64,000 nt of DNA. Origin: Streptomyces antibioticus (lineage in GTDB: Bacteria; Actinomycetota; Actinomycetes; Streptomycetales; Streptomycetaceae). Under the pieces are notes generated by a model, which saw only the letters and a program-made list of their open reading frames with translations, searched no databases and was not told where the DNA came from. Below are positions 19,643-38,510 of this stretch, one piece after another. The stretch is taken from positions 5,071,798 to 5,135,797 of the forward strand of contig NZ_CM007717.1 of assembly GCF_002019855.1 (NCBI RefSeq). The letters run 5' to 3'. The translations under genes and the position numbers were made by a program. The stretch's first letter is position 1. Each line of letters starts with the position of its first letter.

Positions 19643-19644
19643 GG

Positions 19645-19690
19645 AAACCCCCTCTGATCAGGTTAATCACCTGGTCAGAGGGGGTTTCTT
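19645..19690 (+). terminator. tRNA-Tyr terminator supplied by the element
   Basis: A 19-bp stem with one mismatch (arms 19645-19663 and 19669-19687, AAACCCCCTCTGATCAGGT type) is followed by T residues. It lies just inside the element, and a different stem of similar build follows attR at 38511. Confidence 0.88.
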
Positions 19691-19809
19691 ATTGACTCGC
19701 CCTGTTCGATCCGTTGCGGACGGAGCTTGGGCGTGTCTCACTCGGTACCGCCCATATCCCATCGTTGATCAGTGCGTGTCCCCCAGGTGTCCCCCGGGGG
19801 AGAGCAAGA

Positions 19810-21189
19810 TCACTCGGGTTCGTTCCACTCCCGAAGAGCTGCGTCGATCCGGCTGTTCGCGTGCTCCCGCGTCTGGTCAAGCACCTTGGCGTACACCTTG
19901 TGCAGTACGGCGATGCTGTGTCCGGCACGGCGGGCGCACTCCATCGCGTCGACCCCGGAGCTGAGCCAGAACGAGACGCCGGCGTGCCGCAGGTCGTAGG
20001 GGCGACGGGCCAGCAGCGAGGCCGTTTCCGCCTCGCTCAGCACGTCCTTCCGGGCCTTGGCCCACACCTCCCCGTAGCCGGTTTCCTGTAGTAGGCCATT
20101 GCGGTTGGTCCGAAAGAGCCGGCCATCGGGCGCCGTGCCGTGCGTGGCGATGTGCTGCCGCAGCAGGCGCACGAAGTGCGGCGGGATCGGCACCGGACGA
20201 GAGTCCTTCTTGGCGCGGGCCTTGAGGTGGCGTGTCTCATGCGCCGTTCCGTCGTCGGTCCAGCTCCGTCCGGCCCGGACGACTCCTTGCCGCAGCGTGA
20301 GCATCCCCCATCCCGTCTCCGGAAGATGGCACTGACTCACGTGCAGTCCGGCAGCCTCAGCGGGACGCATGGCCGCGTAGTACAGGCACCCGAAGAACGC
20401 TTCCAAGTGCCGCCCACGCGGGCCCTGCTCGCGCACCCCTGCCAGTAGCGCGCGGACCTGGCGAGGGTTGGCGACGCTCTCAGGGTCCACCGCTTCCACC
20501 GACTTCGGGGCGGTCCACTTCACGGCCCTGATCGGGTTGACCGGCATCGTGAAGTACTGCTCTTCCACGGCGAGCCCGAGAACGTCGCTGAGACATGCCC
20601 GCTTGCGCTTCGCGGTGCGCGGCGACGCCTCTTTCCCGTCCAGCCGCAGGGACAGTGCGTCCAGGGCCAGACGTACGGTCGCGGGGTCTTCCATGGCGGA
20701 GACCGGCATGGAGTGCTTGGAGATCCAAGCGAGGGCGCGGGCCACATCATCCGGCGGGGTCTCGTTCCAGCGGTTCCGGTTGTACGCCCACCCGTACAGC
20801 GCGCGCCGCATGAGCGCGGTGTCAGGCATCCCCGTCTTCGTCTTCACGAGTGCGGGGGTGATGGTCGCCAGCGCATCGGCGTAGTTCTTCCGCGACTTCG
20901 CCGGCGCCAATGCCCACTTGCGGTCGACGTACGTGCGGCTGTGCTCGTACCACGTGATGGAGCCCTGTTTGGCGCGCAGTTCGGATACGGGCAGGCCCGT
21001 ATCCTCGTCGAACTGGTCGCCGCGTCGCACGGCGGACATCAGCTCCGAGCGGCGCCCCTCGGCCTGAACCTTGAGCGTGTAGCTCTTGGAGTGCTTGCGC
21101 TCCCCGACCAGCCAGCGCAGGCGGTAGGGCTTCGGGCGATCCTTGCGAACCTCGATGGAGTAGAGGCGAACGTCGTAGGTCAATGCCAT
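19810..21189 (-). CDS. int: Tyrosine site-specific integrase
   Basis: This 459-residue phage-type tyrosine recombinase has an N-terminal arm-binding region, a core-binding domain (about 75-180) and a catalytic domain. Visible residues are the first arginine in YYAAMRPAEAAGL, R401 in the YDLRHAG box, H424 in RRAGHS and nucleophile Y433 in LHKVYAK. The usual histidine of the HxLRH box is replaced by tyrosine (Y398), seen in many Streptomyces element integrases. It should recombine attP with the tRNA-Tyr attB. The gene reads toward attL and follows xis on the same strand. Confidence 0.95.
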   Translation of the reverse strand: MALTYDVRLYSIEVRKDRPKPYRLRWLVGERKHSKSYTLKVQAEGRRSELMSAVRRGDQFDEDTGLPVSELRAKQGSITWYEHSRTYVDRKWALAPAKSRKNYADALATITPALVKTKTGMPDTALMRRALYGWAYNRNRWNETPPDDVARALAWISKHSMPVSAMEDPATVRLALDALSLRLDGKEASPRTAKRKRACLSDVLGLAVEEQYFTMPVNPIRAVKWTAPKSVEAVDPESVANPRQVRALLAGVREQGPRGRHLEAFFGCLYYAAMRPAEAAGLHVSQCHLPETGWGMLTLRQGVVRAGRSWTDDGTAHETRHLKARAKKDSRPVPIPPHFVRLLRQHIATHGTAPDGRLFRTNRNGLLQETGYGEVWAKARKDVLSEAETASLLARRPYDLRHAGVSFWLSSGVDAMECARRAGHSIAVLHKVYAKVLDQTREHANSRIDAALREWNEPE

Positions 21190-21200
21190 ATGAACTCCAA

Positions 21201-21227
21201 AGGGGCCCGCCGTCTCGGCGGGCCCCT
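21201..21227 (-). terminator. Strong hairpin between xis and int
   Basis: AGGGGCCCGCCG (21201-21212) pairs perfectly with 21216-21227 around a 3-nt loop. It lacks a T tract, so it may attenuate read-through from xis into int or stabilise the mRNA rather than fully terminate. Confidence 0.55.
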
Positions 21228-21252
21228 CGTGTCTCGTGTGTGCGAAAGGTGG

Positions 21253-21438
21253 TCAGGCAGCGTCTTCCATGGACGCCCACCACGCGTCGAGGTCGCTGCG
21301 GCGGCAGCGGAGCTGACCGTTGGGCAGTTTGATGAGCTTGGGAGCCTTGCCACGGGCGCGCATGCGGTAGAACGCGGCGCGGCTCATCTCGATCTCTTCG
21401 AGCACTTCGCGGAGCTTGAGCTTCTCGGTGCCAGCCAA
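21253..21438 (-). CDS. xis: Excisionase / AlpA-like helix-turn-helix protein
   Basis: The 61-residue MerR-like winged-helix protein reads LKLREVLEEIEMSRAAFYRMRARGKAPKLIKLPNGQLRCRRSDLDAWWASME, the usual pattern of element excisionases that bend att DNA and steer the integrase. It sits immediately upstream of int on the same strand, with the iteron array upstream of it. Confidence 0.85.
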   Translation of the reverse strand: MAGTEKLKLREVLEEIEMSRAAFYRMRARGKAPKLIKLPNGQLRCRRSDLDAWWASMEDAA

Positions 21439-21488
21439 GGTGGTGACTCCTTCGACGTGTCTGGCCGTTCGGCCCCGTTCTCAGATGT

Positions 21489-21698
21489 CCGCTACATCCG
21501 CTACGCCGCTACATCGCAGGTCAGCGGGGGTGCTTGTGTAGCGGACGTGTGGGATGTAGCGGCTACGGCGCTACGCGCGGGTGTGGCCGTAGCCGCTACA
21601 TCGGGTGGTTGCCGCTACAGGATTTGGGGCTTTGACCTGGGGTGTAGCGGATGTAGCGGCAGTAGCGGACCTACGGGGAGGGGGGCGGGCAGTAGCGG
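21489..21698. repeat. Iteron array GTAGCGG/CCGCTAC, candidate replication origin
   Basis: Eleven exact copies of the heptamer occur in 210 bp. Five read CCGCTAC (at 21489, 21498, 21506, 21593, 21612) and six read GTAGCGG (at 21538, 21556, 21644, 21653, 21662, 21692). A one-base variant is near 21568. The last copy lies inside the 3' end of the DUF3631 gene. Clustered short iterons beside replication genes suggest an initiator-binding origin. An operator for xis-int is the alternative. Confidence 0.7.
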
Positions 21699-22798
21699 GC
21701 CCACGCGTCTTCGAGGTCTTCGCTGTAGTAGCCCTTGAGGACCCCGCCGGCCGTGCGGATGTTGCGTGAGGCGACGGGGGTTCCGTCCGCGGTGACGTAC
21801 TGGCTGAGCATCTTGGACAGGCGCCGGTTGTCGAGTGCCTTGCCGTCGAGGTCGGCCCACGGGGCGTCATCGAGGGCGTTGAGCCTGTCGAGTACGGCGA
21901 TGGTGGGCAGGCGGTCGATGCCCACCATGACGTGGTCGCGCAGGTCGGTGAGCAGGCGGATGCCGATGCTGCCCTTGTCGTTGACCTGGGATGCCTTGAC
22001 CAGCTCGATGCAGGCTTCGCGGGCGCGCTTGGGCCAGTCGCCGCCGACCGCGTCCGCGACGGCGAGCAGTGGTTCCCACACGTCGGCGGGGCGGTCGGTG
22101 ACGCCCTCGGGCATCTGCGGCCAGGCGCCCGCGATGAACTCGCTTGTCTCTTCAGCCCACTTCGCGAGGCGGTCGCGCAGGGCGAAGCCTTCCTTTTCGT
22201 GGATGCGCGAGCGGTATGGTTCCGCCTTTTCGTTTCTGGCCCGCCGGCGCATGCGGATGATGACCGAGCGGGTCAGGATCGTGTCGGGCAGCGAGCCGAG
22301 ACCGGCGACCGCTACGGCGGTGTAGGAGGGGAACGCCTGCACGGTCTGGTTGGCGCCGTCCCCGACGCACCGGTACATCACCTTGCCGCGCCGGTGCCCG
22401 GCGTTGATGAATCCGCGGAGCTGTTCGTTCTCCCCAGCTTTGGGGCCGAAGATGGTGTCGATCTCGTCGAACAGGATCGTGGGCCGCTTGCCGTCGACCC
22501 CGGAAACGGCGCGGAACAGGGCGGCGGCGGATGCGTCGACCGCAGCCATGGGGTTGGGCACGAGGGTTTCCACGATCTCCAGCGCCCGCGACTTCCCGGA
22601 TCCCGGTTCGGGGCTGAGGAAGGCGAGGCGGGGGGTGGACTCGAAGCAGTCGAGCAGGTGGGCGTGCGCATCCCACAACGTCACGGCGACGTAGGCGGCT
22701 TCGGTGGGGAAGACGTTGAAGCGCCGGTGGAAGGCTTCCACCTCGTTGAGCAGCGCGGCGCCGTCGATGGTGGGCGAGGCGGGGGGCTGGCTGGTCAT
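21671..22798 (-). CDS. DUF3631 P-loop ATPase (replication helicase-like)
   Basis: The 375-residue protein has Walker A SPEPGSGKS (G66-S70), Walker B TILFDEID (D111, E112) and the DUF3631 C-terminal part (WEPLLAVADAVGGDWPKRAREA, LDRLNALDDAPWADLDGKALDNRRLSKML). Such proteins pair with prim-pol primases in actinobacterial elements and are thought to act in replication initiation or unwinding. Its start overlaps the stop of the 69-residue gene (ATGA), which overlaps prim-pol in the same way, so the three are translationally coupled. The iterons lie at its 3' end. Confidence 0.88.
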   Translation of the reverse strand: MTSQPPASPTIDGAALLNEVEAFHRRFNVFPTEAAYVAVTLWDAHAHLLDCFESTPRLAFLSPEPGSGKSRALEIVETLVPNPMAAVDASAAALFRAVSGVDGKRPTILFDEIDTIFGPKAGENEQLRGFINAGHRRGKVMYRCVGDGANQTVQAFPSYTAVAVAGLGSLPDTILTRSVIIRMRRRARNEKAEPYRSRIHEKEGFALRDRLAKWAEETSEFIAGAWPQMPEGVTDRPADVWEPLLAVADAVGGDWPKRAREACIELVKASQVNDKGSIGIRLLTDLRDHVMVGIDRLPTIAVLDRLNALDDAPWADLDGKALDNRRLSKMLSQYVTADGTPVASRNIRTAGGVLKGYYSEDLEDAWARYCPPPSP

Positions 22799-23004
22799 GC
22801 GGCCCGTCCTTCCTGAGAGTTGCGCAACGGGCAGGCGGCGCGGTGCCCGTCATGGCCGTGCGGGTTACTGCCAAGGGAAGTTCGGACGCCTTCGGCGACG
22901 CCCTTCGGGGCGCCCACGGCCGGTGCGGGCGAGGCGAGTTCGGCGGCCTGCCCTGCGTCCGCGAGTGGTTGGCCTTCCAAGGGGGAGGTGAGGGGGGCGT
23001 TCAT
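22795..23004 (-). CDS. 69-residue protein coupled between prim-pol and DUF3631 ATPase
   Basis: The start ATG 23004-23002 overlaps the prim-pol stop and the stop overlaps the ATPase start, both as ATGA. This makes it a real coding frame despite its size. It is Ala/Pro-rich in the first half and ends with NPHGHDGHRAACPLR, a cluster of His and one Cys that could bind metal. I do not recognise a family. Position suggests an accessory or bridging part of the replication complex. Confidence 0.7.
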   Translation of the reverse strand: MNAPLTSPLEGQPLADAGQAAELASPAPAVGAPKGVAEGVRTSLGSNPHGHDGHRAACPLRNSQEGRAA

Positions 23005-23909
23005 GCCGCGTCCCGGGGGCGGGCCTTGCGGATGGAGCTGTCCAGGGCGCTGCGGATGGTGGCGCGGCACTCGGCGGCGGTGAGTCCCCGCGCCTCGCCC
23101 GCCCCTTGGAAGGCTTCTTCCACCACGTGGCGGGGGACGTCGCCCCACGCGACGAAGCGCCCCACCTTGAAGGCGCACCGGTTGAGTGTGGTGTTGCGCT
23201 GCCTGTCCGGCGCCGCAGACACGACCGCGCACTCGGCTTCCAGCGCGGCCACGGCCGCGCGGTTCCCGTCGACCACAGGCAGCCGCAGCGGCCCCGCAGA
23301 GCGCGCGGGGGCAGGTTCCAGGATGGTGTGCAGCCATCCGGGCAGCGGAGCCGCCACGGAGCCGTTGACGGCTTTGTAGGTTCCGGTGTCGGTGGTGCTG
23401 CCCGCGGCGACGACGTAGCCGCCCCATGCGCGGGTGTCGATCAACTCACCGATGGTTCCTGCGGTGTTGGCAAACCGCGCGTCGGGTGGGGCGGTGAAGT
23501 ACAGGTGTGTCCCGCCGCTCGCGGTCCGCACCCGGTAGGTGTCGGGGACGGGGTGTCCGGCGCGCTCGCAGAGCGCCTCAAAGGTCGTCGCGCCGCAAGG
23601 CGCGTCCGCACTGCCCTTGGACTTGGGCATGTCGAGGTCGACGACGACCAGCCCGGAGGGGCCGGTGGCGATGCCGACGTTGAACGCGCCGGACGACCAT
23701 GCGGCGCGGATGCGCTCGGGGTCGGTGGTGGCGCGCTGCTCCCACTTCACGTGTCCGCCGGCGCATCGGCCCGTGCGGGGGCAGGTGACTTCGCCGTGCA
23801 GAGCGGGCCGCTTGGTGCCGGGGCGGAGGGGGAAGACGTGCCAGCCGCGGGCGGCGGCATCCAGGGCCGCCGCCAGGGGGTCTCGCGGGACGGTGCCTGC
23901 ATAGGTCAT
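23001..23909 (-). CDS. Bifunctional DNA primase/polymerase (prim-pol domain)
   Basis: The 302-residue protein has the prim-pol fold: RGWHVFPLRPGTKRP at the N-terminus, a C43-x5-C49-GG-H53 zinc-like insert, NVGIATGPSGLVVVDLDMP with catalytic D91 and D93, and SGGTHLYF with H135. The family synthesises primers and extends them, allowing autonomous replication of excised elements. It is preceded by the first copy of the 89-bp leader hairpin and followed by the coupled 69-residue gene and the DUF3631 ATPase. Confidence 0.93.
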   Translation of the reverse strand: MTYAGTVPRDPLAAALDAAARGWHVFPLRPGTKRPALHGEVTCPRTGRCAGGHVKWEQRATTDPERIRAAWSSGAFNVGIATGPSGLVVVDLDMPKSKGSADAPCGATTFEALCERAGHPVPDTYRVRTASGGTHLYFTAPPDARFANTAGTIGELIDTRAWGGYVVAAGSTTDTGTYKAVNGSVAAPLPGWLHTILEPAPARSAGPLRLPVVDGNRAAVAALEAECAVVSAAPDRQRNTTLNRCAFKVGRFVAWGDVPRHVVEEAFQGAGEARGLTAAECRATIRSALDSSIRKARPRDAA

Positions 23910-23992
23910 GCTGGGGGTTCTCCTGATCTCTTGGAGGGACGGGAGGACCGGGGCGGGCGCAGGCTTGTGGTGAGACGGCGCCCGCCTCGGGC
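23904..23992 (-). promoter_or_regulatory. Conserved leader hairpin, copy 1 (before prim-pol)
   Basis: An 89-bp block is repeated at 25269-25357 with one mismatch. Read on the minus strand it has a 9-bp stem (plus-strand arms 23952-23960 and 23978-23986) closing a 17-nt loop CGTCTCACCACAAGCCT. A C/T-rich stretch follows, then AGGAG and the prim-pol ATG. A third copy at 31346 keeps the loop but has different, still complementary arms. Confidence 0.75.
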
Positions 23993-23996
23993 GTAC

Positions 23997-25274
23997 CTAG
24001 GCGATGTCCAGGGCGAGTTGCGACGGGGCATCGGCCGACGCTTCGGGCGCGTCGACAGCGAGCAGCGTGCGGTAGGCGAGGGCGGCCTGATGGATGACCA
24101 CGCCGTTGCCGAGGATCTTGAGTTGGTCGGAGCGGGACAGACCCAGGTCCGTGCCAGTCACCCAGCCGGGATCGGCGCCCATCATCCATTCCACGAACGC
24201 GGGGGCCAGGCGGCGGTTTCCCTTGGTGCCCGCTTCGGTCGGCTCCGGCGCCGGGCGTCCCAGGACCGTTTCCCACCGGTGGATGGCGGGGCCGTAGTCG
24301 GTGCCGTTGGTTGCCACCCACCGCCCGTCCAGACGCACGGCCTGGCCGGGCAGGTAGTAGTTGCCGGCCGTGTCGCGCTGGTTGGGTCCGCCGTGCGGCC
24401 CGTCGGAAGCCTTCGGGGTGGGCAGCAGATTGACCACCACCTCGTTCAGGGGGCGGGAGTTGGTCCCTAAGAGGTTGGAGGCGCCGGACTTCCAGTCGCG
24501 GGCCGCAGGGGTGGGCAGCAGCGTCACGGCGGTACGCAGGTTCAACCCGCCCTTGCGTTTGGGGGAGGTGCCGGGGCCACCGGTGCCGTCGGCGGCAGCC
24601 GGGGTGGGCAGCAACCTCAGCCATCCGTCGGAGGCAGCAAGAACACCACTTCGTCCTCCAGCGTCGGCCCGTGCCCGCCCGCCTTGCGCTTGTCCGGATG
24701 CTGCGGCCCCCCATTGCGTCCCAACTGTGAGGTGGGGGTCTTCAGCAGCGGGATACGCGACGGCGAACCAGCGGTCGCGCCGGTGGCAGGCTCCGACTTC
24801 GGGATCTCCAGCGCGTAGGCACATCCACCGCGCGTCGTACCCGATCGCGGCCAGGTCGGCGGCGACGACGTCGAGTCCCCGGCTGCGGAGGGCGGCGACG
24901 TTCTCCAGGAAGACGAGTCGGGGGCGAAGATGGCGAATGGCTTGGGCGATCGTTTTCCAGAGTCCTGAGCGGTCACCGGCGATCCCTCCCCGAGGTCCGG
25001 CGTTGGAGATGTCCTGGCAGGGGAAGCCAGCGGTCAGTGCCGCCGGGCGCGCCAGCGTTGCAGACAGGCTGGCCCAGTCGACGGCGGTGATGTCGCCGAG
25101 GTTGTGGACACCGGGCAGGCGGGCGGCGAGCAGCCGGGACGCGGCCGGGTCCTTCTCGCCGACCATGACCGTGGGCAGGCCGGTGACGGCTTCCACGGCC
25201 TGGTCAAGCGCACCGGAGCCGGTGCACAGGCTGATGTTGCCGCCCTCCGGCGGCGCGACGGGGTGATGGGTCAT
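23997..25274 (-). CDS. DNA (cytosine-5) methyltransferase
   Basis: This 425-residue C5 methyltransferase has the ordered motifs: I (SLCTGSGALDQAV), IV with catalytic C86 in GFPCQDIS, VI ENV (124-126), VIII CHRRDRWF and X ILGNGVV near the C-terminus. The target-recognition part (about 200-340) has a repeated LLPTPxAxDG phrase. No restriction endonuclease is next to it, so it is an orphan enzyme that could mask the element from host restriction or mark origin DNA. It has its own copy of the leader hairpin just upstream. Confidence 0.93.
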   Translation of the reverse strand: MTHHPVAPPEGGNISLCTGSGALDQAVEAVTGLPTVMVGEKDPAASRLLAARLPGVHNLGDITAVDWASLSATLARPAALTAGFPCQDISNAGPRGGIAGDRSGLWKTIAQAIRHLRPRLVFLENVAALRSRGLDVVAADLAAIGYDARWMCLRAGDPEVGACHRRDRWFAVAYPAAEDPHLTVGTQWGAAASGQAQGGRARADAGGRSGVLAASDGWLRLLPTPAAADGTGGPGTSPKRKGGLNLRTAVTLLPTPAARDWKSGASNLLGTNSRPLNEVVVNLLPTPKASDGPHGGPNQRDTAGNYYLPGQAVRLDGRWVATNGTDYGPAIHRWETVLGRPAPEPTEAGTKGNRRLAPAFVEWMMGADPGWVTGTDLGLSRSDQLKILGNGVVIHQAALAYRTLLAVDAPEASADAPSQLALDIA

Positions 25275-25357
25275 GCTGGGGGGTCTCCTGATCTCTTGGA
25301 GGGACGGGAGGACCGGGGCGGGCGCAGGCTTGTGGTGAGACGGCGCCCGCCTCGGGC
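25269..25357 (-). promoter_or_regulatory. Conserved leader hairpin, copy 2 (before methyltransferase)
   Basis: It is identical to copy 1 in 88 of 89 positions. Stem arms are at 25317-25325 and 25343-25351. It lies directly between the 131-residue gene upstream and the methyltransferase ATG. Confidence 0.75.
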
Positions 25358-25361
25358 ATAG

Positions 25362-25757
25362 CTACAGGTCGTCGTCGGTGTGGTCGATCGGGCCGCAGTA
25401 ACCGAGCGGGCCGGCGGCGCGGTGGGCGCGTTCCAGGGCTTCGGCCATCGCGGTGGCGTGCTGCTCAGCCTCGCGCAGCGCCTTCGAGACGGTGTTGGCG
25501 TGCTCGGTGGGGGTGCCGTGGTCGGCGGTGAGGTGTCCGGCCGTGTGGAGGTCGGCCAGCATGGTGCCGATCTGGTCGAATGCCTGCGGCAGCCGGTGGG
25601 CGAGCGTGCCGAAGGCGCCGATGGCGCGGTACACGGTGCCGGGGTAGGCGATGCCGGTGCGCCTGCCGACGCTGCGCACGGTGGTGTGGTTGAAGGCACG
25701 CACGGCCTCAGCGGCGGCGCGCGGGTGCTCGATCGGGTCGGTGTCGCGGTTGGGCAC
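25362..25757 (-). CDS. Conserved element protein of unknown function (131 aa)
   Basis: A soluble, mainly helical 131-residue protein with no motif I can name. The middle reads AYPGTVYRAIGAFGTLAHRLPQAFDQIGTML, and a helical ALREAEQHATAMAEALERAHRAAG segment could form a coiled coil. It ends four bases before leader copy 2 and follows the zinc-ribbon gene. A DNA-binding or partition-like role is possible but not supported directly. Confidence 0.65.
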   Translation of the reverse strand: MPNRDTDPIEHPRAAAEAVRAFNHTTVRSVGRRTGIAYPGTVYRAIGAFGTLAHRLPQAFDQIGTMLADLHTAGHLTADHGTPTEHANTVSKALREAEQHATAMAEALERAHRAAGPLGYCGPIDHTDDDL

Positions 25758-25773
25758 AGGAGTTCCTCTCGGG

Positions 25774-26061
25774 TCAGAAGGGGGGTTCGTCGCTGTAGCC
25801 GACAGGGCCCCACGGATCGCGGTGCCGGTTGCGGCGCAGCCACCGGGGCGGTCGCGGGAGGGGCATGAGGAGCCAGCGGCGGTTCTCGTCCCAGCACTCG
25901 CAGGGGTCCCACTCGGTTCCGGCGTACTCGCCGGTCTCGTGGTCGCCGTAGTCGTACGCGGTGCCGCCTTCGCCCTCGCACCGCGGGCAATCGGGGTGGG
26001 GAGTGTCGGTCAGGACCAGGGACCGGCGCGGCCAGGTCGTGAGCTGAATGCGCAGTCGCAT
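25774..26061 (-). CDS. Small CxxC...CxC zinc-ribbon-like protein (95 aa)
   Basis: ATG 26061 opens a 95-residue frame with CPRCEGEGG at about 25-33 and CEC at about 57-59, a DnaJ-type half-site arrangement suited to one zinc ion. A basic Trp/Arg-rich part follows (RPPRWLRRNRHRDPWGP). Small zinc-ribbon proteins are common in actinomycete transfer elements; the function is unknown. Confidence 0.65.
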   Translation of the reverse strand: MRLRIQLTTWPRRSLVLTDTPHPDCPRCEGEGGTAYDYGDHETGEYAGTEWDPCECWDENRRWLLMPLPRPPRWLRRNRHRDPWGPVGYSDEPPF

Positions 26062-26078
26062 CACAGGCGTTGCTCTCC

Positions 26079-26531
26079 TCAGCCGTGGAAGTGGTTGCGC
26101 TTGATCACGGCCTTGCGGATGTGGACCGTGGTCCCGCCGCGATGGCCGCCCGCGCTGAAGACCTGCACGGCGATGAAGCCGCCGAAGATGACGGCGGCGA
26201 GGATGACGAGCTGGGTGACCAGGGCGGCGAGGGCGGTGATGAACGCGGTCAGTAGGAACAGCCCACCGCACACGGCAAGGAACCCCACGCCCCCGAGGGC
26301 GACGTTCACCGCAGCCCGCGAGACCACCGGCTTGGCGGCGGCCGGTTCCGGCTGCACGGGGGTGATGGCGTAGCCGGTGACGACACGGCCGTCGGGGAGG
26401 ACGACGCTCGCCACGGCCGGGATGCCAGCGGCCTGCACGGGCGCGATCGGCGCCAGGGGCGCGGGCGCGATCGGGGTGGGGCGGTGGACTTCCACGGCCG
26501 CCGCGGCAGGGGCGTGGGCGGGCTGGTTCAT
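26079..26531 (-). CDS. Spread-type membrane protein (DUF6251-like)
   Basis: The 150-residue protein has a Pro/Ala-rich N-terminal half and two strongly hydrophobic segments (about 75-97 and 100-122), then a basic end HIRKAVIKRNHFHG. The position in the run of small genes downstream of the transfer ATPase fits Spd proteins, which help plasmid DNA spread through septa of the recipient mycelium. The DUF number is from memory of similar proteins and is tentative. Confidence 0.65.
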   Translation of the reverse strand: MNQPAHAPAAAAVEVHRPTPIAPAPLAPIAPVQAAGIPAVASVVLPDGRVVTGYAITPVQPEPAAAKPVVSRAAVNVALGGVGFLAVCGGLFLLTAFITALAALVTQLVILAAVIFGGFIAVQVFSAGGHRGGTTVHIRKAVIKRNHFHG

Positions 26532-26544
26532 GTGGGTCTCCTTC

Positions 26545-26739
26545 TCAGTTGCCGAGGGCCGTGAGGGCGTCGGCGGACGCCTGCACGACGTTGTGGATGG
26601 GCTCGTAGGCGCCGGTTCCGGCGGCGAAGAACCCGAACAGGAACAGGACCAGGGCGGCGCCGCCGCCGGCGGACTTGGTCTTGACGGCGAAGACGGAGGC
26701 GGCGCCGAACAGCAGCACGGCGGAGATGTTGAGGATCAC
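26545..26739 (-). CDS. Two-helix small membrane protein (64 aa)
   Basis: GTG 26739 opens a 64-residue frame with two hydrophobic helices (about 3-18 and 26-42) separated by KTKSAGGG, and a polar tail. The open frame continues upstream but that part is Arg/Pro-rich and unlike a protein start. It is a probable spread or transfer accessory protein in the same small-gene cluster. Confidence 0.6.
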   Translation of the reverse strand: MILNISAVLLFGAASVFAVKTKSAGGGAALVLFLFGFFAAGTGAYEPIHNVVQASADALTALGN

Positions 26740-26895
26740 GGCAGACAACTCGCTTTCGGGCGAGGCGGATGGGTGGATACGCTCTGCGCGCCCCGGGTGC
26801 TGGCAAGTTCGGGGCGCGCAGACCGGCGACCGTGCCCGCCTGGCTCCAGCTAGGAGCGGGGTCCGTCTCATGACGGGCGGTCGCCGGTCGCCTGC

Positions 26896-27147
26896 TCAGC
26901 CGGTGCCGGCGCGGTAGATGCGGGCCCAGCGGTTGTAGAGCCAGCGGCCGACGCGTATGCGCTTGCCGGTGGCGTGGCAGCGGCGGCAGTCCTTGCCGCG
27001 CTTCATGCGGCCCTTGCGGTCGGTCTTCATCTCGAACCCCCATCCCCGGCACCTGCGGCAGGGGCCGAACGGGGAGACCGCGCACATCCCGGCGTAACCG
27101 AGCGTGATGGTCAGTAGGCAGGCGATAGCGAGCAGGGCAAGGCTCAT
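26896..27147 (-). CDS. Membrane-anchored DnaJ-type zinc-motif protein (83 aa)
   Basis: ATG 27147 follows GGAGGG. One N-terminal membrane helix (about 2-20) is followed by two CRRC-type motifs, CRRCRGWG and CRRCHATG, about 20 residues apart, and a basic tail RIRVGRWLYNRWARIYR. The two CxxC pairs should bind one zinc. It lies directly downstream of the palindromic CCGCTA cluster, which could control it. Confidence 0.7.
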   Translation of the reverse strand: MSLALLAIACLLTITLGYAGMCAVSPFGPCRRCRGWGFEMKTDRKGRMKRGKDCRRCHATGKRIRVGRWLYNRWARIYRAGTG

Positions 27148-27190
27148 GAGGGGCCCTCCGGGGCAGGATTCTGGGGTTTCCGCAGGTGGG

Positions 27191-27278
27191 CCGCTATCCG
27201 CTAGCGGCCTGATCAAAGGCGGTTTGGGGCGCTAGCGGGGCCGCTAACGTTAGCGGGGTGTGCCGCTAGCGTTAGCGG
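27191..27278. repeat. Palindromic CCGCTA cluster, candidate operator or transfer site
   Basis: Within 88 bp there are CCGCTAGCGG (27198-27207), GCTAGC in GGCGCTAGCGG (27231-27236), the perfect 16-bp palindrome CCGCTAACGTTAGCGG (27241-27256), and CCGCTAGCGTTAGCGG (27263-27278). They lie just downstream of the transfer ATPase gene. The half-site CCGCTA is shared with the iteron array at 21489-21698. Confidence 0.65.
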
Positions 27279-27288
27279 CCCCGGAGCG

Positions 27289-29517
27289 TCAGCCCGCGTC
27301 CCGCTTTCCGTCACGCTCCGCAATCACGGCGGTGATGTGGGAGCGGTCGATGCCGCGGCGGTTGACGACCTTGCCGTCCACCCGGCGACCCACCTGGATG
27401 GTGGAGATGCCGTGCGGCTTGAGTGCGGCGGCGAGCGCGTCGGGCTCCCATCCGCCGTAGACGTCCGGGCGCAGTTCGGCGAGCCGGGCCACGACCGCCT
27501 CGGACCATTCCTTGGCCTGCGCGGCGGGGACGACGGCGAGGATGTCGGCGAGCAGGTCGTAGGACGGCCCGGTCACCGCCTCCGCAGCCTCTCCGAGGGC
27601 GTGGCCGGTGAGGAGTCCGGCCGTCTCGCGGGCCTTGCGGGCACGGGCGGCGATGGTCTCGGCGCCGGGGGCGTCGACGTAGACGCCGGCGACGATCCGG
27701 GCGTCCGCCCCTTCGCCCACGAAGTAGTGGATGCCCTTGTCACCCCACGCGAACATGGTCGCCCGCACGCCGCGCTTGTAGGCGGACGTTCCGAGCACCA
27801 TGTCGTTCTCGGTCTGGCCCATGACCTTCATGCACCACCGGGCGGACGCGTTCGCGGAGATGCCGGTGGGCAGCGACTTGGCGTCGGGGCGCTGCGTGGC
27901 CAGCAGCATCACGATGCCGGTGGCGGGGCCGCGCTTGACCAGGTCGGTGGCGATCTCCTCGAACTCCTTGCCGTGCTCGGGGTGCTCGAACAGCACCTGG
28001 CACTCATCCACCCCGACCACGATCGGGTGCAGTCCGAGCGAGCGCTTGTCGGCGAGTTGGCTGGTCACCTTCGACTCAGGGCAGATGTCGCGGGGCAGGG
28101 AGCGGATCACCTTGGTGCGGCGGCGCAGTTCCTCGCGCAGCGCCCGGAAGTCGGCGAGCGCGTAGCCGATGGCTTCGTCGTCGTCGCCAGCGGCGTGCCG
28201 GTGGGAGACGGCGTTGCCGACCGGGTCCAGGTCGCCGGTGCCCTTCATGTCGTAGGTGTGCAACTCCGCCCGCGGGTCCAGCGCGGCGATGAGCAGCAGC
28301 AGACGCAGCAGGAACGTCTTGCCCATGCGCGGGATGGCGCCGATCACCCCGGCGATGTACATCAGGGTGACGTCGATCCAGCGTCCGCGCTGGTCGGTGC
28401 CGTAGGCGACGGGCTTGAACAGGTCCACCGCGCCCGCCTTGGCCAGCGGCCATTGCGGCTTCTTCGCCGTGGTCAGGTCCTGATCCCCCACCCACAGCAC
28501 CAGGTGCCCGGTGTGCTCCTGCGCCACCGCCTCGGGCCACACGCAGCCGAGCGGGCGGCGCAGACCGGAGGCGAGCCGGTCGCGACGCTCGATCACGTCG
28601 GTGACCGTCACGCCGAAGGGGAGGTTGCCCTGCGCGCGCCAGCCGGGGCCGTCGCGAGTGATCGGGGCGGTGAACTCGAACCCGTCGCGGCCCTTGGCCT
28701 GCGCCTGATTGATCGCCGGAATGCCCAGCGCCCCGAGCGCCCGCAGCACGATGTCACTGGTGAGCTTGGTGGCCTTGGGCAGTTCCACCGCACGGTGGAC
28801 GACCGGGGCGTCCGCCTTGCGGCCGACGACTCCGAGCGCCATCACCAGCGCGGTGACCGAGACGGCCTGAAGCCAGTCGGGGGCGAGGACGTACAGGGCC
28901 AGTGCGGTCGCCAGACCGGTGAACATGCCCAGCGCGGTGACCAGGGTGCGCATCCGCACCCGGCCGTCGCGCTGCCGGGACAGCTTCAGATACTCGGCCG
29001 CGTCCTCGCGGCGGACCGCGGCCAGTCGGACGGGTTCGCCCTCCCGGTCGGCCATCCACCGCATCGTGCCCCCGACGAACCGAGCGGCGCCGGCCGGGGC
29101 TTGAAGGGCGAGGCGGGCGGCGTAGACCGGCGTGCGAAGCGCGTGGTAGCCGGTGGTGTGGGCGTAGTGGCGGGCTGCCCACGCCGACGCGGTGCGCAGT
29201 TCGGCGAGCGAGTGCAGCCACGCCGGGACGATCGGACGGCGCTGCGCTGCGGCAAGCCGACCGAGGTAGCCGGGGCCGACCGCCTTCAGCGTCGGCGAGT
29301 CGACCAACACCGTGCCGGACGGGTCGGCCGACTCAACACCCGACTCCCCGGGACCGGAGTCGGCCGACCGGTCGGCGGCGGGCCGGGCGGTCGGGTCGGT
29401 CGACTCCGAGCGGGCCGACCGTGCCTTGCCGAGGTCGACCACCTCGCCCCCGGAGTCGGCGGCCATCTCGGCTTCCAGACGGTCGAAGAGTTCGTGGTCG
29501 TCGTCGGGATGCTTCAC
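27289..29517 (-). CDS. tra: FtsK/SpoIIIE-type DNA transfer ATPase (Tra)
   Basis: I start at GTG 29517 behind AAGGAAG, giving 742 residues; ATG 29553 upstream is possible. The order is an acidic N-terminal region, two membrane helices (about 190-233), a long central part, Walker A GAIPRMGKT (393-401), Walker B PIVVGVDECQVLF, an FtsK-type LLATQRPDAKSLPTGISANAS segment and a C-terminal winged-helix-like end. This matches TraB-like translocases that move double-stranded DNA between mycelia as hexamers. It is the key conjugation gene of the element. Confidence 0.93.
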   Translation of the reverse strand: MKHPDDDHELFDRLEAEMAADSGGEVVDLGKARSARSESTDPTARPAADRSADSGPGESGVESADPSGTVLVDSPTLKAVGPGYLGRLAAAQRRPIVPAWLHSLAELRTASAWAARHYAHTTGYHALRTPVYAARLALQAPAGAARFVGGTMRWMADREGEPVRLAAVRREDAAEYLKLSRQRDGRVRMRTLVTALGMFTGLATALALYVLAPDWLQAVSVTALVMALGVVGRKADAPVVHRAVELPKATKLTSDIVLRALGALGIPAINQAQAKGRDGFEFTAPITRDGPGWRAQGNLPFGVTVTDVIERRDRLASGLRRPLGCVWPEAVAQEHTGHLVLWVGDQDLTTAKKPQWPLAKAGAVDLFKPVAYGTDQRGRWIDVTLMYIAGVIGAIPRMGKTFLLRLLLLIAALDPRAELHTYDMKGTGDLDPVGNAVSHRHAAGDDDEAIGYALADFRALREELRRRTKVIRSLPRDICPESKVTSQLADKRSLGLHPIVVGVDECQVLFEHPEHGKEFEEIATDLVKRGPATGIVMLLATQRPDAKSLPTGISANASARWCMKVMGQTENDMVLGTSAYKRGVRATMFAWGDKGIHYFVGEGADARIVAGVYVDAPGAETIAARARKARETAGLLTGHALGEAAEAVTGPSYDLLADILAVVPAAQAKEWSEAVVARLAELRPDVYGGWEPDALAAALKPHGISTIQVGRRVDGKVVNRRGIDRSHITAVIAERDGKRDAG

Positions 29518-29553
29518 TGGAACTTCCTTCCGCTTACGGGCGTGAGGGAGCAC

Positions 29554-29593
29554 GGGCCCGGCCGAACGCTGTAGGAGGTGAGCGGTCGGGCCC
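29554..29593 (-). promoter_or_regulatory. Leader hairpin before tra, possible fourth family member
   Basis: Arms 29554-29564 and 29583-29593 pair in 10 of 11 positions around an 18-nt loop that includes CTCACC on the minus strand. This resembles, weakly, the conserved loops of the three clear leader hairpins. It lies about 36 nt before the tra GTG. Confidence 0.35.
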
Positions 29594-29676
29594 TGTCGGG
29601 ACTCTTGCGGCTGGCACCTGGTCTGAACAGGTCCTTTAGCCGGTCTTCTACCTGCCCTTTGGTGGCCCTTTTCGCC

Positions 29677-30072
29677 TCAGGCAGCGTGGGCAGCGGCGCG
29701 CTGTTCCTCGGGATAGGCGCAGAGGATGCACATCCCGAGGGAGGTCGGGATGCAGTAGCTGTAGGTCGTCCGGCAGGCGGGGCAGGTGTGGCGGGCGAGC
29801 ATCGCCAGGGCGAGCGCACCCCACTTGCGCGACGTCATCGGTCGCACCGGCTTGGCGAGGTCGACCCGATAGAGGTAGGCGACCTGCGCTCCCGTCCTGC
29901 GGCCCCGGTGACTGCGCATCACTTGTGCGGCCACCGGCTGACCACCCGGCCGCAGACCTGCCGCGCGGAGCTGGCGGCGGGTGGCGTAGCCGTCCGGGGC
30001 GAACTGCCACGGGAATGTGGGGATACCGAACCGGGCGCCGGCGGGATCGAAGCACTTCGTATAGGCGGACAT
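29677..30072 (-). CDS. RRQ(R)L-motif zinc-binding protein
   Basis: The 131-residue protein has TRRQLRAAGLRPGGQPVAAQV near residue 31, the hallmark phrase of a zinc-binding family common in Streptomyces integrative elements. A C-terminal CPAC...CILC pair could hold one zinc. Its start overlaps the stop of the DUF2637 gene, so they are coupled and co-transcribed toward tra. Confidence 0.75.
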   Translation of the reverse strand: MSAYTKCFDPAGARFGIPTFPWQFAPDGYATRRQLRAAGLRPGGQPVAAQVMRSHRGRRTGAQVAYLYRVDLAKPVRPMTSRKWGALALAMLARHTCPACRTTYSYCIPTSLGMCILCAYPEEQRAAAHAA

Positions 30073-31064
30073 CAGGCCGCCACCCCAGCGTCAGCCTCAG
30101 GTCCGGACGGATCGACGGGACGCAGTATGCGGGCGTCCGCCCGCTCGGCGAGCAGGGCATCGCGTACCTGCCGGGCGGGACCCGAACCGCAGCGCAGGGC
30201 CTTGCGGAGCGCCTCGGCGTTGATCCCGGCGTCCGGCCAATCGGCCGTGGCCGTACGCGCCTCGGTCAGCAGGTCCGCCACCGAACGCGGCGGCGCGGTC
30301 TTGGCCCTGCCCTTCGCGGCCTGCTTCCGTGGCGCCCTCGGAACGGAAGGAACGGACTCTTCCGCAGCCTCCCCGGGCTCGGGGCCGGGGTCGGTGACCG
30401 CGCCAGCGGGGTTCAGCTCACCCAGACGCAGAAGGACGCGTTCGCGGCGCGGTGTCCGGCGCCGCCAGGCACGGCCGTAGCGCTCGCGCAGGTCCGCACG
30501 GGCCAGCAGCCTTTCCCGCTCGCGGGCGAGCGCGTCGGCGTAGGAGGTGACCTCCCACAGCGTCATCCGCCGCCACAACGCGAACGTCGACAGCGGGGCG
30601 AGCAGCCAGCGCGAGAACCGCACCTTCTCCATCCGCCGGCCCGTCGCGGCGCCGATCCGCACGGCGTAGACGTGCGCGCCGATCTCGGAGAACACCACCC
30701 ACAGCAGCGGCATCGTCCCGTGCGCCACCTTCGCCGACAACGAGTGCCCGGCGGCGACGTTTAACCCGCACGTGATCAGCGTCAGTACCCAGGGCACGAA
30801 CCGCACCCAGGCCAACGCCATGTCCATGCGGATCAACAGCAGGTTGGCGAGCGTGAACACCGGGATCGCCGTGTCGATACCGACCGGCAGCATCCACGGC
30901 TCGCCGAATCCCCACCGCACTGCCGCAGCGGACACTGCGTCGAACGACGACACCAAGCCCAACGCGCCGACCCCGGCGGCGGCGAGCGCCCCCAGACCGG
31001 CCAGGCCCAGTTCCGGGCGCGTCAGCGGCGGCACGGCCAGACGCTCACTGGTCTGCGCGCTCAT
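30072..31064 (-). CDS. DUF2637 (SpdB-like) membrane protein
   Basis: ATG 31064 overlaps the stop of the 95-residue gene (ATGA), giving 330 residues. Four hydrophobic segments lie in the first 150 or so residues, with the family pattern WMLPVGIDTAIPVFTLANLLLIRM. A basic region, a Pro/Ala-rich linker and a small C-terminal domain (PRSVADLLTEARTATADWPD...LRKALRCGSGPARQVRDALL) resembling a DNA-binding helix-turn-helix follow. DUF2637 proteins are typical of conjugative elements and are likely spread factors. Confidence 0.82.
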   Translation of the reverse strand: MSAQTSERLAVPPLTRPELGLAGLGALAAAGVGALGLVSSFDAVSAAAVRWGFGEPWMLPVGIDTAIPVFTLANLLLIRMDMALAWVRFVPWVLTLITCGLNVAAGHSLSAKVAHGTMPLLWVVFSEIGAHVYAVRIGAATGRRMEKVRFSRWLLAPLSTFALWRRMTLWEVTSYADALARERERLLARADLRERYGRAWRRRTPRRERVLLRLGELNPAGAVTDPGPEPGEAAEESVPSVPRAPRKQAAKGRAKTAPPRSVADLLTEARTATADWPDAGINAEALRKALRCGSGPARQVRDALLAERADARILRPVDPSGPEADAGVAA

Positions 31065-31348
31065 GCCGCCACCCCCCGACGGGGCATCCGACGGCGGGCG
31101 GCGTGGTGCAGAGAGACGATGGCGAACAGCTCTGGATGCGCCTCTACGACCCCGGCCGCGATGCGGATCAGGTCGTCCGGCATCTCCGGGTGGTCGGCGA
31201 GGATGTCGCGCGCGGCGTCCTCGCGGGCCGCGCGCTCTTCGTCCGTCTCGCCCTCGACCCCGAGCCACAGCTCAACCGGGGTACCGAGCGCCAGTTCGGC
31301 GAACTCTTCGACAGAGACGGCCTGATGGCCGCCGATGTACGTGCGCAT
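31061..31348 (-). CDS. Small acidic element protein (95 aa)
   Basis: ATG 31348 follows AGGAG at the end of leader copy 3. The 95-residue protein reads AVSVEEFAELALGTPVELWLGVEGETDEERAAREDAARDILADHPEMPDDLIRIAAGVVEAHPEL and is acidic and helical. I do not recognise a family. It starts a coupled run of 95-aa protein, DUF2637 and RRQ(R)L protein, then tra. Confidence 0.7.
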   Translation of the reverse strand: MRTYIGGHQAVSVEEFAELALGTPVELWLGVEGETDEERAAREDAARDILADHPEMPDDLIRIAAGVVEAHPELFAIVSLHHAARRRMPRRGVAA

Positions 31349-31420
31349 GAGGGCTCCTGAGTCGGAGGGACGGGAGAACCGGAGGGCCGCAGGCGTGTGG
31401 TGAGACGGCAACCACTCCGG
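31346..31420 (-). promoter_or_regulatory. Conserved leader hairpin, copy 3 (diverged)
   Basis: The loop (plus strand 31391-31407) differs from copies 1 and 2 in one of 17 positions. The arms (31379-31390 and 31408-31420) have a wholly different sequence yet pair over 12 bp, with two G-U wobbles and one bulged base. The C/T-rich spacer and AGGAG before the start codon are also kept. Confidence 0.75.
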
Positions 31421-31523
31421 AAGAAACCCCAGCCGCATCGCGGAAAGGGGAGAGCGCCCCGGGCCGGATCCGATCCGGCGCCCATCACGGCTGGTTGCCG
31501 GGGCTGTAGAAGCGGGAGGAGCG

Positions 31524-31691
31524 CTATCGGGGTTGCTCGGTCAGGTGAGCGGCGTCCTCGTAGGCGGTGCGGATCTCCTGCTGCTGCCAGGCCAGCTCAG
31601 CAGCAGACGGGGCAGGGTCCTGCCGGCCGAGGTCGGCGGCCCATGCGTCCGCGCTCGCCTCCAAGCGCCAGGCAGCCGGGTCGGTCGCCAT
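31524..31691 (-). CDS. Tiny coupled ORF 3 (55 aa)
   Basis: ATG 31691 shares a base with the stop of the 35-residue ORF (TGATG). Sequence MATDPAAWRLEASADAWAAD... is acidic with many Ala and Trp. The context of coupled starts and good Shine-Dalgarno sequences supports coding; the function is unknown. Confidence 0.55.
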   Translation of the reverse strand: MATDPAAWRLEASADAWAADLGRQDPAPSAAELAWQQQEIRTAYEDAAHLTEQPR

Positions 31692-31798
31692 CAGCACGCC
31701 TCCTCGTACGCGGCCGTGTGACCTACCGCGTGCGGGTGTGGGCGAGGGGGACGGACCGGAAGCGGCGGCTTGGTCTTCGCGTGCTCGGTCTCGGCCAT
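31691..31798 (-). CDS. Tiny coupled ORF 2 (35 aa)
   Basis: MAETEHAKTKPPLPVRPPRP... is Pro/His-rich. Start and stop both overlap neighbours as TGATG, and GAGGAGG within its end serves as the ribosome binding site for the next ORF. It may act mainly as a translational coupler. Confidence 0.45.
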   Translation of the reverse strand: MAETEHAKTKPPLPVRPPRPHPHAVGHTAAYEEAC

Positions 31799-31902
31799 CA
31801 ACGACCGCCCCGAACACGCGCGTTGTCCTCACTGCGCTTGTTCGCCTCTGCGGCCTTACGGGCCAGTTCCGCCCGCTCCGCGTCTGTCAGACTGGTGATC
31901 AC
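31798..31902 (-). CDS. Tiny coupled ORF 1 (34 aa)
   Basis: GTG 31902 follows GGAGG. The product, M-ITSLTDAERAELARKAAE..., is a single charged helix. Its stop overlaps the next start. It is the first gene of the minus-strand element run. Confidence 0.45.
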   Translation of the reverse strand: MITSLTDAERAELARKAAEANKRSEDNARVRGGR

Positions 31903-31928
31903 AGGTGCCTCCACTCAGGTGCCTGTAC

Positions 31929-31958
31929 GCGGTCCCCGGGTCGCACCCCGGGGACCGC
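31929..31958. terminator. Perfect 12-bp GC hairpin at the head of the minus-strand gene run
   Basis: GCGGTCCCCGGG (31929-31940) pairs with CCCGGGGACCGC (31947-31958) across six bases. It lies 27 bp upstream of the first tiny ORF. It may insulate this run from plus-strand transcription or be part of a control region. Confidence 0.5.
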
Positions 31959-32545
31959 TCTTGTGTGTGGTGGGGCCGTCAAATCCCGGCTCCCCCCGCC
32001 CCGCCCGGACGGACCTGCGCACGCAAGGCGCGCTCCGCACGGGCGGGAAGAGGCAACCGGCCGCAGCGCTAGCCGCCGCGAATCGGTGAAAGGCGACCGG
32101 TCGTCCGCAGCACTCCGAGGCGCTCACGGACCGGGGATGAAACGGCGCCGCCATGCCGGTCGATCACGGCCGCGCCCATCGCATTCGTCGACTCACTGCC
32201 ACTCCTTCAGCCAGATGAACAGGGGAAACGCACTGCAAGGGGGACCGTGTCCCCACTCACCGGCCGTTGCTCGCGGTCACCGGGCCACCTCGCCAGTCGG
32301 GCCGAAGCCCTGTCCCCTGGCCTTCAGCGGGATTGCAGCGTCCCCGCCTTGTGCATCTGTGCAGGTCAAGCAGGCATTGCAAGGACTCCGGCCTTTGCGG
32401 GACCGAGCCTTCAACTCTGTCTCAGAGTGCACTGTGAGGCAGAGTTGGTCAAGTGCCCAAGCGGAAGAAGCGGTGTGGGCCGCTGGTTCTAGCTCTGAGG
32501 CTTGTGCACTATGAGGCAGAGACCTAGATGAGGCTTGGGGTGCAG
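31959..32545. other. Regulatory gap between divergent gene runs
   Basis: About 590 bp separate the minus-strand transfer run from the plus-strand GntR gene. I see no convincing coding frame on either strand. The right part holds two 18-bp direct repeats (listed separately). This is where the divergent promoters of the element are expected. Confidence 0.5.
32427..32521 (+). promoter_or_regulatory. Two 18-bp direct repeats upstream of the GntR gene, candidate operators
   Basis: GTGCACTGTGAGGCAGAG (32427-32444) and GTGCACTATGAGGCAGAG (32504-32521) differ at one base and start 77 bp apart. CTCTGTCTCAGAG, a small palindrome, touches the left copy. Their place directly before the gntR start suggests autoregulation. 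Confidence 0.6.
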
Positions 32546-32899
32546 ATGGTCGAGTGGACCGGCAAATTCGCCTACCAACAGGTGGCTGACGACCTGCGGC
32601 GACGTATCGCCGATGGCGAGTTCGTCGTCAACGGCCAACTTCCCTCGCTCGCAGACCTTCAACGGACCTACAAGGTCACAGTGACCGTCGCTCGCGCGGC
32701 CATACGTCAACTGACGATGGACGGGCTCGTGGTGAGCCATCAGGGCAAGGGGGCTTTCCTGACGTCCGACGCTGCTGGCCGTGCCACGCAGCATGCGGAC
32801 CCAATCGGGGCCGTGGCTTCGCTGCGCGAGGAAGTCGAGCAACTGCGGACCGAGGTGGCTGACCTGCGCGAGCGCGTCGCGACCCTTGAAAGAAGCTAG
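32546..32899 (+). CDS. GntR-family transcriptional regulator (KorSA-like role)
   Basis: I use ATG 32546; ATG 32528 in frame is an alternative that nearly touches the right operator repeat. The protein has an N-terminal GntR winged helix (YQQVADDLRRRIADGEF, LPSLADLQRTYKVTVTVARAAIRQLTMDGLV) and no large effector domain. Instead it ends with a leucine-rich coiled coil (LREEVEQLRTEVADLRERVATLE). Short GntR proteins of this type repress transfer and replication genes in Streptomyces elements, limiting lethal tra expression. That role is inferred. Confidence 0.85.
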   Translation: MVEWTGKFAYQQVADDLRRRIADGEFVVNGQLPSLADLQRTYKVTVTVARAAIRQLTMDGLVVSHQGKGAFLTSDAAGRATQHADPIGAVASLREEVEQLRTEVADLRERVATLERS

Positions 32900-33133
32900 C
32901 TGCCTGGCGGGGCGGATCGGTGCCGCATCGTGCGTGCCGCGGAACATCTGAACCCCCTCGTTCGGTGTGGGGACAAGTTCACCGCCGGAACGTCGAAATC
33001 TGTATCACGTCCCGCTACCTGAGAAAGTTCCGGCACTTTTATACATCCGCTTACACATGCGCTATCACGAATTTCCATTGGCCTAGTCGGGCCGCTACAC
33101 TCGCGGCTCCGACCAGCTATCTAGGAGGGGCAG

Positions 33134-34150
33134 ATGGCTCGGAAGCACCCGGATTGGAAACCCGATCTCCTGCGAATGCATCGCGAGGAAATAGGGCTGA
33201 CTCTGGAAGACACGGGGGAGAAACTCCGAGAAATCGCGGAGCGTCATGGCTTCAACATCGCCGCGAACTTCCAGACGATCTGGGGCCACGAGAAAGGAAC
33301 GGTGTACCCCGGCCCGCATTATCGCCGGGCGTACTGCCGCCTCTATCGTCGCAATGAGGCTCAACTTGGCTTCCGTAAGGCCCTGCCCGGAGAGGATGCC
33401 CCTGTGGAATACGTACCGGCGCCCGCTTCCGCTGAGCGAAAGCTTCCCGGCCAACCAGATGCAGTACGTCAAGCGCTCAGTAGCATCCGCGAAGGCACCG
33501 GCGACGTGGATAGCGAGGCTCTGCGCAATCGCGTGGTGGATGCATGGCGCCGGCACACCGCAGCGGGAAGCGTAGATGGCCCTACCGTGATCCTGGTCGG
33601 GGGGTATGCAGGCTCCGGGAAGTCCGAGTTTGCGAAGTTCCTCGGCGGACTCACCGGCTGGCCCATCCTGGACAAGGACTCCCTGACGCGCCCTTTGGTC
33701 GACCAACTCTTGGTCGCACTCGGGGGAGAGGCTCACGACCGGAGTTCGGCGCTGTATCGGGAAAAGGTTCGGCCGCTCGAATATCGGTGCCTCATGGAGG
33801 CCGCTTGGGACAACGTAGATTGCGGAATTTCGACAATCCTTGATGCCCCATTCATTTCTGAATTCTCGCAGTCTGAATGGATGCAGCGCTTCCAGAACCG
33901 ATGCCGCTCGAAGCGTGTCTCCGTTGCGACGATATGGGTTGAGTGCGACCCGGAATCTATGCGTGAGTACATCGAGTTCCGTGGAGCGGCGCGCGATGCT
34001 TGGAAGATGGAATCGTGGGATGAGTACCTTGCAGGGCTCGACTTGAAGATGCGCCCGCAGGGCCCGCACTTCGTCGTCGACAACCGGCTTGGTGCCGCCG
34101 TGGCACTGGTTGACGAAGCCCGTGACGTGCTGAGCGGAGGCGGCCTGTGA
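33134..34150 (+). CDS. XRE-like domain fused to P-loop kinase (AAA_33 / zeta-like)
   Basis: The 338-residue protein starts after AGGAGGGG. Residues 1-82 resemble an XRE DNA-binding domain of Streptomyces regulators (TIWGHEKGTVYPGPHYRRAYCRLYRRNEAQLGFR). Residues 150-330 form a small-molecule-kinase-like P-loop domain with Walker A GGYAGSGKS (156-164) and DKD (180-182), followed by the likely specificity region. It could be a regulator with a kinase sensor, a zeta-toxin-like enzyme or a nucleoside kinase. Its stop overlaps the guanylate-kinase-like gene, the first of two coupled junctions in this cassette. Confidence 0.75.
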   Translation: MARKHPDWKPDLLRMHREEIGLTLEDTGEKLREIAERHGFNIAANFQTIWGHEKGTVYPGPHYRRAYCRLYRRNEAQLGFRKALPGEDAPVEYVPAPASAERKLPGQPDAVRQALSSIREGTGDVDSEALRNRVVDAWRRHTAAGSVDGPTVILVGGYAGSGKSEFAKFLGGLTGWPILDKDSLTRPLVDQLLVALGGEAHDRSSALYREKVRPLEYRCLMEAAWDNVDCGISTILDAPFISEFSQSEWMQRFQNRCRSKRVSVATIWVECDPESMREYIEFRGAARDAWKMESWDEYLAGLDLKMRPQGPHFVVDNRLGAAVALVDEARDVLSGGGL

Positions 34151-34734
34151 ACCCTTCGGGCGTCATCCTGTACGGGCCCCCAGGGTCCGGCAAGGACACG
34201 GTCGCGGCCGAACTCGCCGTGCTTCGAGGGGAGTTCAAGTTCTTTCGCCGACTCAAGGCAGGCCCCGGACGGACCGAGGGATACCGGCTGACGACAGCCG
34301 AGCACATCGAAGAATTGGCGCAGGCCGGAGAGGTTCTGTACCGCAACAGCCGATATGACGCGGAGTACGCCGTTGACCGTGCCGAAGTCGCTGCGGTCGT
34401 CGGCTCGGGGAGTGTTCCTGTCCTTCACATCGGCCAGGTGGCCGGGGTGCATGCCGTCACGGCCTACCCCATCAACTGGGTACGTGTGCTCCTGTGGTGC
34501 CCCGAGGATGTGACGCGGCAGCGGTGCAGGGACCGCGGGGACAAGGACGTGGAAGCCCGCCTGAAGGTGTGGCACGAGACTCGCCAGGATCTCTTGGACC
34601 ACACAGCCGAGCCATGGTCACTCGTCCTCAGAACAGACAAGGTCAGTGCGGCTCAGGCAGCCCAAGCTGTCGATGAAGCGCGGTTGGTCGGCGCACCCGC
34701 AGAAGCGCGTGACATCCGTGAGCTTGTCGGATGA
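34147..34734 (+). CDS. Guanylate-kinase-like P-loop protein
   Basis: GTG 34147 overlaps the upstream stop. The 195-residue protein has Walker A GPPGSGKDT (10-18), FFRRLKAGPGRTEGYRLTTAEHIEELAQAGEVL, like the GMP-binding region of guanylate kinases, and an RQRCRDRGDKD lid-like segment. It differs from housekeeping Gmk in the substrate loop, so another nucleotide or phosphorylated substrate is possible. It is coupled to the dehydrogenase-like gene by a 4-bp overlap. Confidence 0.7.
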   Translation: MNPSGVILYGPPGSGKDTVAAELAVLRGEFKFFRRLKAGPGRTEGYRLTTAEHIEELAQAGEVLYRNSRYDAEYAVDRAEVAAVVGSGSVPVLHIGQVAGVHAVTAYPINWVRVLLWCPEDVTRQRCRDRGDKDVEARLKVWHETRQDLLDHTAEPWSLVLRTDKVSAAQAAQAVDEARLVGAPAEARDIRELVG

Positions 34735-38508: not shown

Positions 38509-38510
38509 AG

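Follow-up and report, generated by a model that had tools for sequence, protein, structure and literature searches.

A structured leader with element-specific loops precedes several genes of actinomycete integrative elements

Three hairpin leaders in an integrative element of Streptomyces antibioticus

The window analyzed here is a 64,000-nucleotide stretch of the S. antibioticus genome (contig NZ_CM007717.1). It contains an integrative element of the AICE kind (PMC3218068) that extends from 19554 to 38510, bounded by a tRNA-Tyr attL (19554-19644) and a direct-repeat attR (about 38452-38510). The element encodes Int, an AlpA-like excisionase, DUF3631/RepAM, a prim-pol, TraB/FtsK and DUF2637. 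Between the DUF3631 and AlpA-like genes, at positions 21480-21660, GTAGCGG recurs many times in both direct and inverted orientation, resembling replication-origin iterons. Right after the TraB/FtsK gene, a cluster of GCTA(A/G)CG repeats with a 21-bp inverted repeat (27150-27285) is a candidate clt (transfer) site.

Three genes on the minus strand of this element share a leader, as the first-pass annotation had noticed: the prim-pol gene (23001-23909; Pfam PF09250), a C5-cytosine DNA methyltransferase gene (23997-25274; PF00145) and a gene for a 95-aa protein with no Pfam or NCBIfam match (31061-31348). The leader blocks lie at 23917-23995, 25282-25360 and 31351-31425, all on the minus strand; in each, a hairpin (P1) whose loop is 17 nt long is followed by a pyrimidine-rich spacer, AGGAG and the start codon. 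In leader 1, which precedes prim-pol, P1 occupies 23948-23990, and a 13-position stem with one A.C mismatch closes the loop CGTCTCACCACAAGCCT (23961-23977). Leader 2, in front of the methyltransferase gene, is 96% identical to leader 1 across 99 bases and repeats its loop (P1, 25313-25355; loop, 25326-25342). The hairpin of leader 3, before the 95-aa gene, spans 31379-31420, and its loop, CGTCTCACCACACGCCT (31391-31407), agrees with CGTCTCACCACAAGCCT at 16 of 17 positions.

The stem of leader 3, CCGGAG-T-GGTTGC / GCGGCCCTCCGG, forms 12 pairs with one bulge and two G-U pairs, exactly as first reported. Its arms had also been called completely different from those of the other copies; they are diverged yet paired, but all three leaders share the outer CCGG and the inner GC pairs. 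A 20-mer spanning the loop has three matches where 0.07 would be expected, a count that none of 100 shuffles reached, and RNA folding gives P1 z-scores of -3.9 for copies 1 and 2 and -3.0 for copy 3.

A second helix, P2, is predicted just downstream of P1 in each leader, again on the minus strand. In leader 1 (23920-23945), CTCC would pair with the GGAG of the Shine-Dalgarno sequence AGGAG at 23920-23924. The predicted P2 of leader 2 (25285-25310) lies over the Shine-Dalgarno site at 25285-25289, and that of leader 3 (31354-31376) would join CTCC to the GGAG of the site at 31354-31358.

Several other features accompany these leaders. Leaders 1 and 2 form near-identical direct repeats around the methyltransferase gene (23901-23999 and 25266-25364), and the gene could therefore come or go by homologous recombination between them; the same leader-flanked layout is found at loci L001, L072, L081, L126 and L159. 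TraB/FtsK genes are preceded by hairpins of their own whose loops are different, namely CTCACCTCCTACAGCG in the window (29555-29605, minus strand) and CTCTTTCCACGG in L214 and L222; outside the window these hairpins lie at L218:6673, L210:11761, L214:7236 and L222:11608. Upstream of the 95-aa leader (31450-31503, minus strand) is a tRNA T-arm-like minihelix, GCCCCGG ... GCCGGATCGGATCCGGC CCGGGGC, with GGTTCGACTCC elsewhere, that recurs in 11 of 18 aligned elements (the window, L077, L087, L089, L090, L091, L106, L137, L138, L142 and L143). The fold z-score of the minihelix in the window is not significant; RNase P-type processing at this site is conceivable.

A covarying stem in a fixed position

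The exact loop occurs in 24 public-genome stretches, 17 of which have the hairpin and come from Streptomyces. The other seven, including the matches outside Streptomyces, lack the hairpin and were set aside as chance. A covariance-model search, which the first-pass annotation had proposed, traced the leader well beyond the window. The first model, built from 16 copies, found it in 127 of 296 genomes of the genus, and the second, built from 115 copies, in 163 of 246 genomes of the order (E<=0.001); both models include the loop, so these surveys under-sample elements with very different loops. Outside the order there were few model matches, most of them weak. Weak matches at L186, L188, L190-L192, L195 and L365 show no leader features and were discarded as chance, and the matches from a short-loop scan of viral contigs were too numerous and unspecific to be used. 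A clear variant exists in one other family of the class, with the loop ACCGTCTCGCCAA(A/C)G(T/C)CACC before TraB and integrase genes and a second loop, CCAACCGCCAAGAAGCC, before SSB and a zinc ribbon. A third variant, with the loop CAGCATCGGCAA(A)GAGGC, is carried by two Streptomyces linear plasmids (NZ_CP109291.1 and NZ_CP059899.1).

The P1 hairpin is real and kept by selection. In the 115-copy alignment, 97.1% of 1478 stem cells are paired, and compensating changes on both sides are seen at 12 of 13 pairs. The alignment has a covariation score of 0.408, compared to 0.138 after shuffling and at most 0.059 when the partners are slid. This alignment is fitted to the structure. The first, unfitted alignment has 4 double-changed pairs against 0.3. 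In a check independent of the fitted alignment, native arms form 9.21 of 10 pairs, and exchanging arms among leaders whose stems differ lowers this to 4.76. The claim of a structured element under selection, which on three copies amounted to a single comparison, is thus borne out by strong arm covariation in related elements. Rather than recent duplications lacking arm covariation, these elements carry compensatory arms.

Support for P2 covering the Shine-Dalgarno site is moderate. The Shine-Dalgarno region is predicted to be paired in most leaders, but the excess over shuffled spacers is modest: its pairing probability with the spacer is 0.873, compared to 0.819 after shuffling. Of the tails, 89% are more stable than their own shuffles are on average (mean z, -0.97). 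Variants of the helix match on both sides (TCTCC/GGAGA, GCTCC/GGAGC, CCAG/CTGG and CCAAC/GTTGG); the P2 helices were chosen as the best for each sequence, and the matches are support, not proof. A pseudoknot between the loop and the Shine-Dalgarno site (UCUC with GAGA) is possible in many copies, but the flanking positions do not covary and we rejected it.

The position of the leader is as regular as its structure. Across 130 leaders, which lie between the upstream stop codon and the Shine-Dalgarno site, the distance from the end of the loop is 37 nt to the Shine-Dalgarno site (IQR 36-38) and 50 nt to the start codon (49-52). For 100 of the 130, the reading frame upstream ends no more than 15 nt from the stem (median, 6 nt); this count accepts any frame of at least 60 codons and is approximate in GC-rich DNA. 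Such placement after upstream stop codons suggests read-through transcription.

The genes behind the leader are not homologous to one another. Prim-pol is the commonest (62 of the set); the others include the 95-aa protein (15), three C5-methyltransferase families, DnaB-like helicases, a DpdA-like protein, an AlpA-like excisionase, integrase, SSB and TraB. The association with replication, methylation and transfer genes seen at first pass therefore recurs and takes in excision as well. Unrelated proteins behind the leader start alike, with MT(Q/H)PTxxRR in the first 10 or so codons, so the module reaches into the coding sequence and may serve as a crossover point for gene swapping.

The annotator knew of no named RNA with this loop in such elements, and in Rfam release 15, where the leader would class as cis-regulatory, no family reaches the gathering score for the window leaders or for seven related loci; permissive matches are chance. 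The literature we searched contains no description of the leader, and two AICE papers do not mention the hairpin (PMC3218068, PMC8584621). We regard it as a new, widespread and previously undescribed structured leader and claim no membership in a named family.

One loop per element

The loop had been described as invariant. This does not hold: it is constant inside one element and varies from element to element. Across 29 elements and 47 pairs, the loop distance within an element is 1.96; permuting the element labels inside each gene class gives 5.18 +/- 0.23 (p<=0.0003). Among the 16 pairs whose arms differ by at least 7 edits, the loop distance is still 2.06, against 5.92 between elements. 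Three leaders of L221 have the loop CTCCCGGACA(A)GGACAG and three of L220 have CTCCCGTGCA(A)AGGACAT, the bracketed A being absent from one copy in each case; two leaders of L089 share TCTCTCGAAA. The genome of the window itself carries two elements with different loops, CTCACCACAAG and, in the second element, CTCGCCAAAG, which argues against a single host-wide specificity.

The arms, too, are partly alike within elements (p<=0.0003), pointing to some homogenization by gene conversion between leaders. Copying from leader to leader does not, however, account for leaders whose loops are equal while their arms differ and still pair. One loop per element, even on differing arms, is the mark of one common trans-acting partner per element, and this constancy, a pattern in the sequences, argues for such a partner more strongly than invariance of the loop would have.

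A candidate translational switch and its rivals

We infer from these patterns that the leader acts as RNA, that a trans factor reads it and that it controls translation in a particular direction. The leader would be a cis-acting RNA operator with an element-specific trans partner, coordinating the translation of excision, replication and transfer genes, a reading to which we assign a probability of roughly 0.58. P1 would present its loop for recognition, while P2 would pair the spacer with the Shine-Dalgarno site and keep translation low. A single factor per element, most likely one of the element's own products, would read the P1 loop of every leader and alter access to the Shine-Dalgarno site. 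The outcome would be a joint post-transcriptional switch for excision (Int, Xis), replication (prim-pol, DnaB, SSB), methylation and transfer (TraB, first operon gene).

Comparison of the proteins encoded by the elements revealed no partner factor. By clustering, TraB is the only near-universal protein (31 of 32 elements). Prim-pol was rejected as a general binder, given that L210 and L211 have leaders with no prim-pol nearby, and the RRQRL zinc protein and the 95-aa protein were rejected because each is missing from several elements. Most homologues of the 95-aa protein have an arginine-rich C-terminus; its AlphaFold model (pLDDT 75) has no recognizable fold and matches nothing solved.

This lack of any universal protein but TraB would also suit an antisense RNA, in which a counter-transcript from one leader, or another trans RNA of the element, kisses all the loops of that element and blocks translation as in plasmid copy control. 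Such a partner fits loop identity within elements and free divergence between them. It also fits L218 (G094), whose two leaders (at 3772 and 10675) have almost the same stem and carry the usual loop in reverse-complement form. This inversion, seen in one element among roughly a hundred loci, is unexplained by a protein-only model unless these copies are non-functional, and it warns against assuming a protein partner. Furthermore, the usual loop holds CUCR, fitting the U-turn motif YUNR, which speeds antisense pairing (PMC4485353). However, some loops (CUCU) violate this motif, and the loop is largely conserved between distant elements and in both families, beyond what complementarity needs. 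None of the elements tested has a separate complementary copy of the loop, so the source would have to be the leader itself, where no antisense promoter is apparent. On balance we consider an antisense partner unlikely.

Alternatively, the hairpin could function in single-stranded DNA, where it might serve in priming, nicking or protein docking during replication or transfer of the element. Hairpins with recognized loops are priming sites in other replicons, prim-pol is the gene most often found behind the leader, and an inverted loop such as that of L218 would still function in DNA. Wobble pairs fail to single out the sense strand, with 30 on it and 19 on the antisense strand, a difference that is not clearly higher and comes from a scoring that favoured G-T. 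A DNA site, however, has no need to keep its distance from the Shine-Dalgarno site and start codon constant to a few bases, and the leader is kept in elements that lack prim-pol. We judge this explanation improbable. An mRNA-processing or stability hairpin, or an operon terminator between genes, read by a host factor, would account for a GC-rich stem of 12-13 pairs directly after the upstream stop codon in most copies, but it is more improbable still: no U-tract of the kind that marks an intrinsic terminator follows the stem in the leader sequences inspected, neither a terminator nor a stabilizer requires a conserved loop, and a host factor cannot explain different loops within one host or rare loops common to one element.

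The RNA operator that we favor has known relatives in kind. T4 gp43, MS2 coat and ribosomal-protein operators are hairpins at or just upstream of the ribosome-binding site whose loops are specifically recognized. The leader resembles them in lying near the ribosome-binding site; unlike these operators, which are single and autogenous, it places one loop before several non-homologous genes and changes that loop by element. It shares with plasmid antisense targets of the CopT/CopA type an element-specific loop in the leaders of replication genes and a U-turn-like CUCR, but here a core of the loop is kept across families and several genes per element have the leader, not one rep gene. KorSA and Pra of the AICE pSAM2 coordinate replication, excision and transfer, as the leader would; they act on promoters.

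To our knowledge, the decision of actinomycete integrative elements to excise, replicate and transfer is understood in only a few models, and there as promoter-level control. The leader is present in about two thirds of the sampled genomes of the order and stands before nearly every key function of the element, which makes the decision testable by reporter fusions, and loop sharing within elements offers a natural assay for finding the partner. Tentatively, and at somewhat less than even odds, the loops may be an element-specific RNA address that lets co-resident elements keep separate post-transcriptional control, with loop and partner diversifying together like plasmid incompatibility groups. 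The loops could also become orthogonal RNA control parts for Streptomyces.
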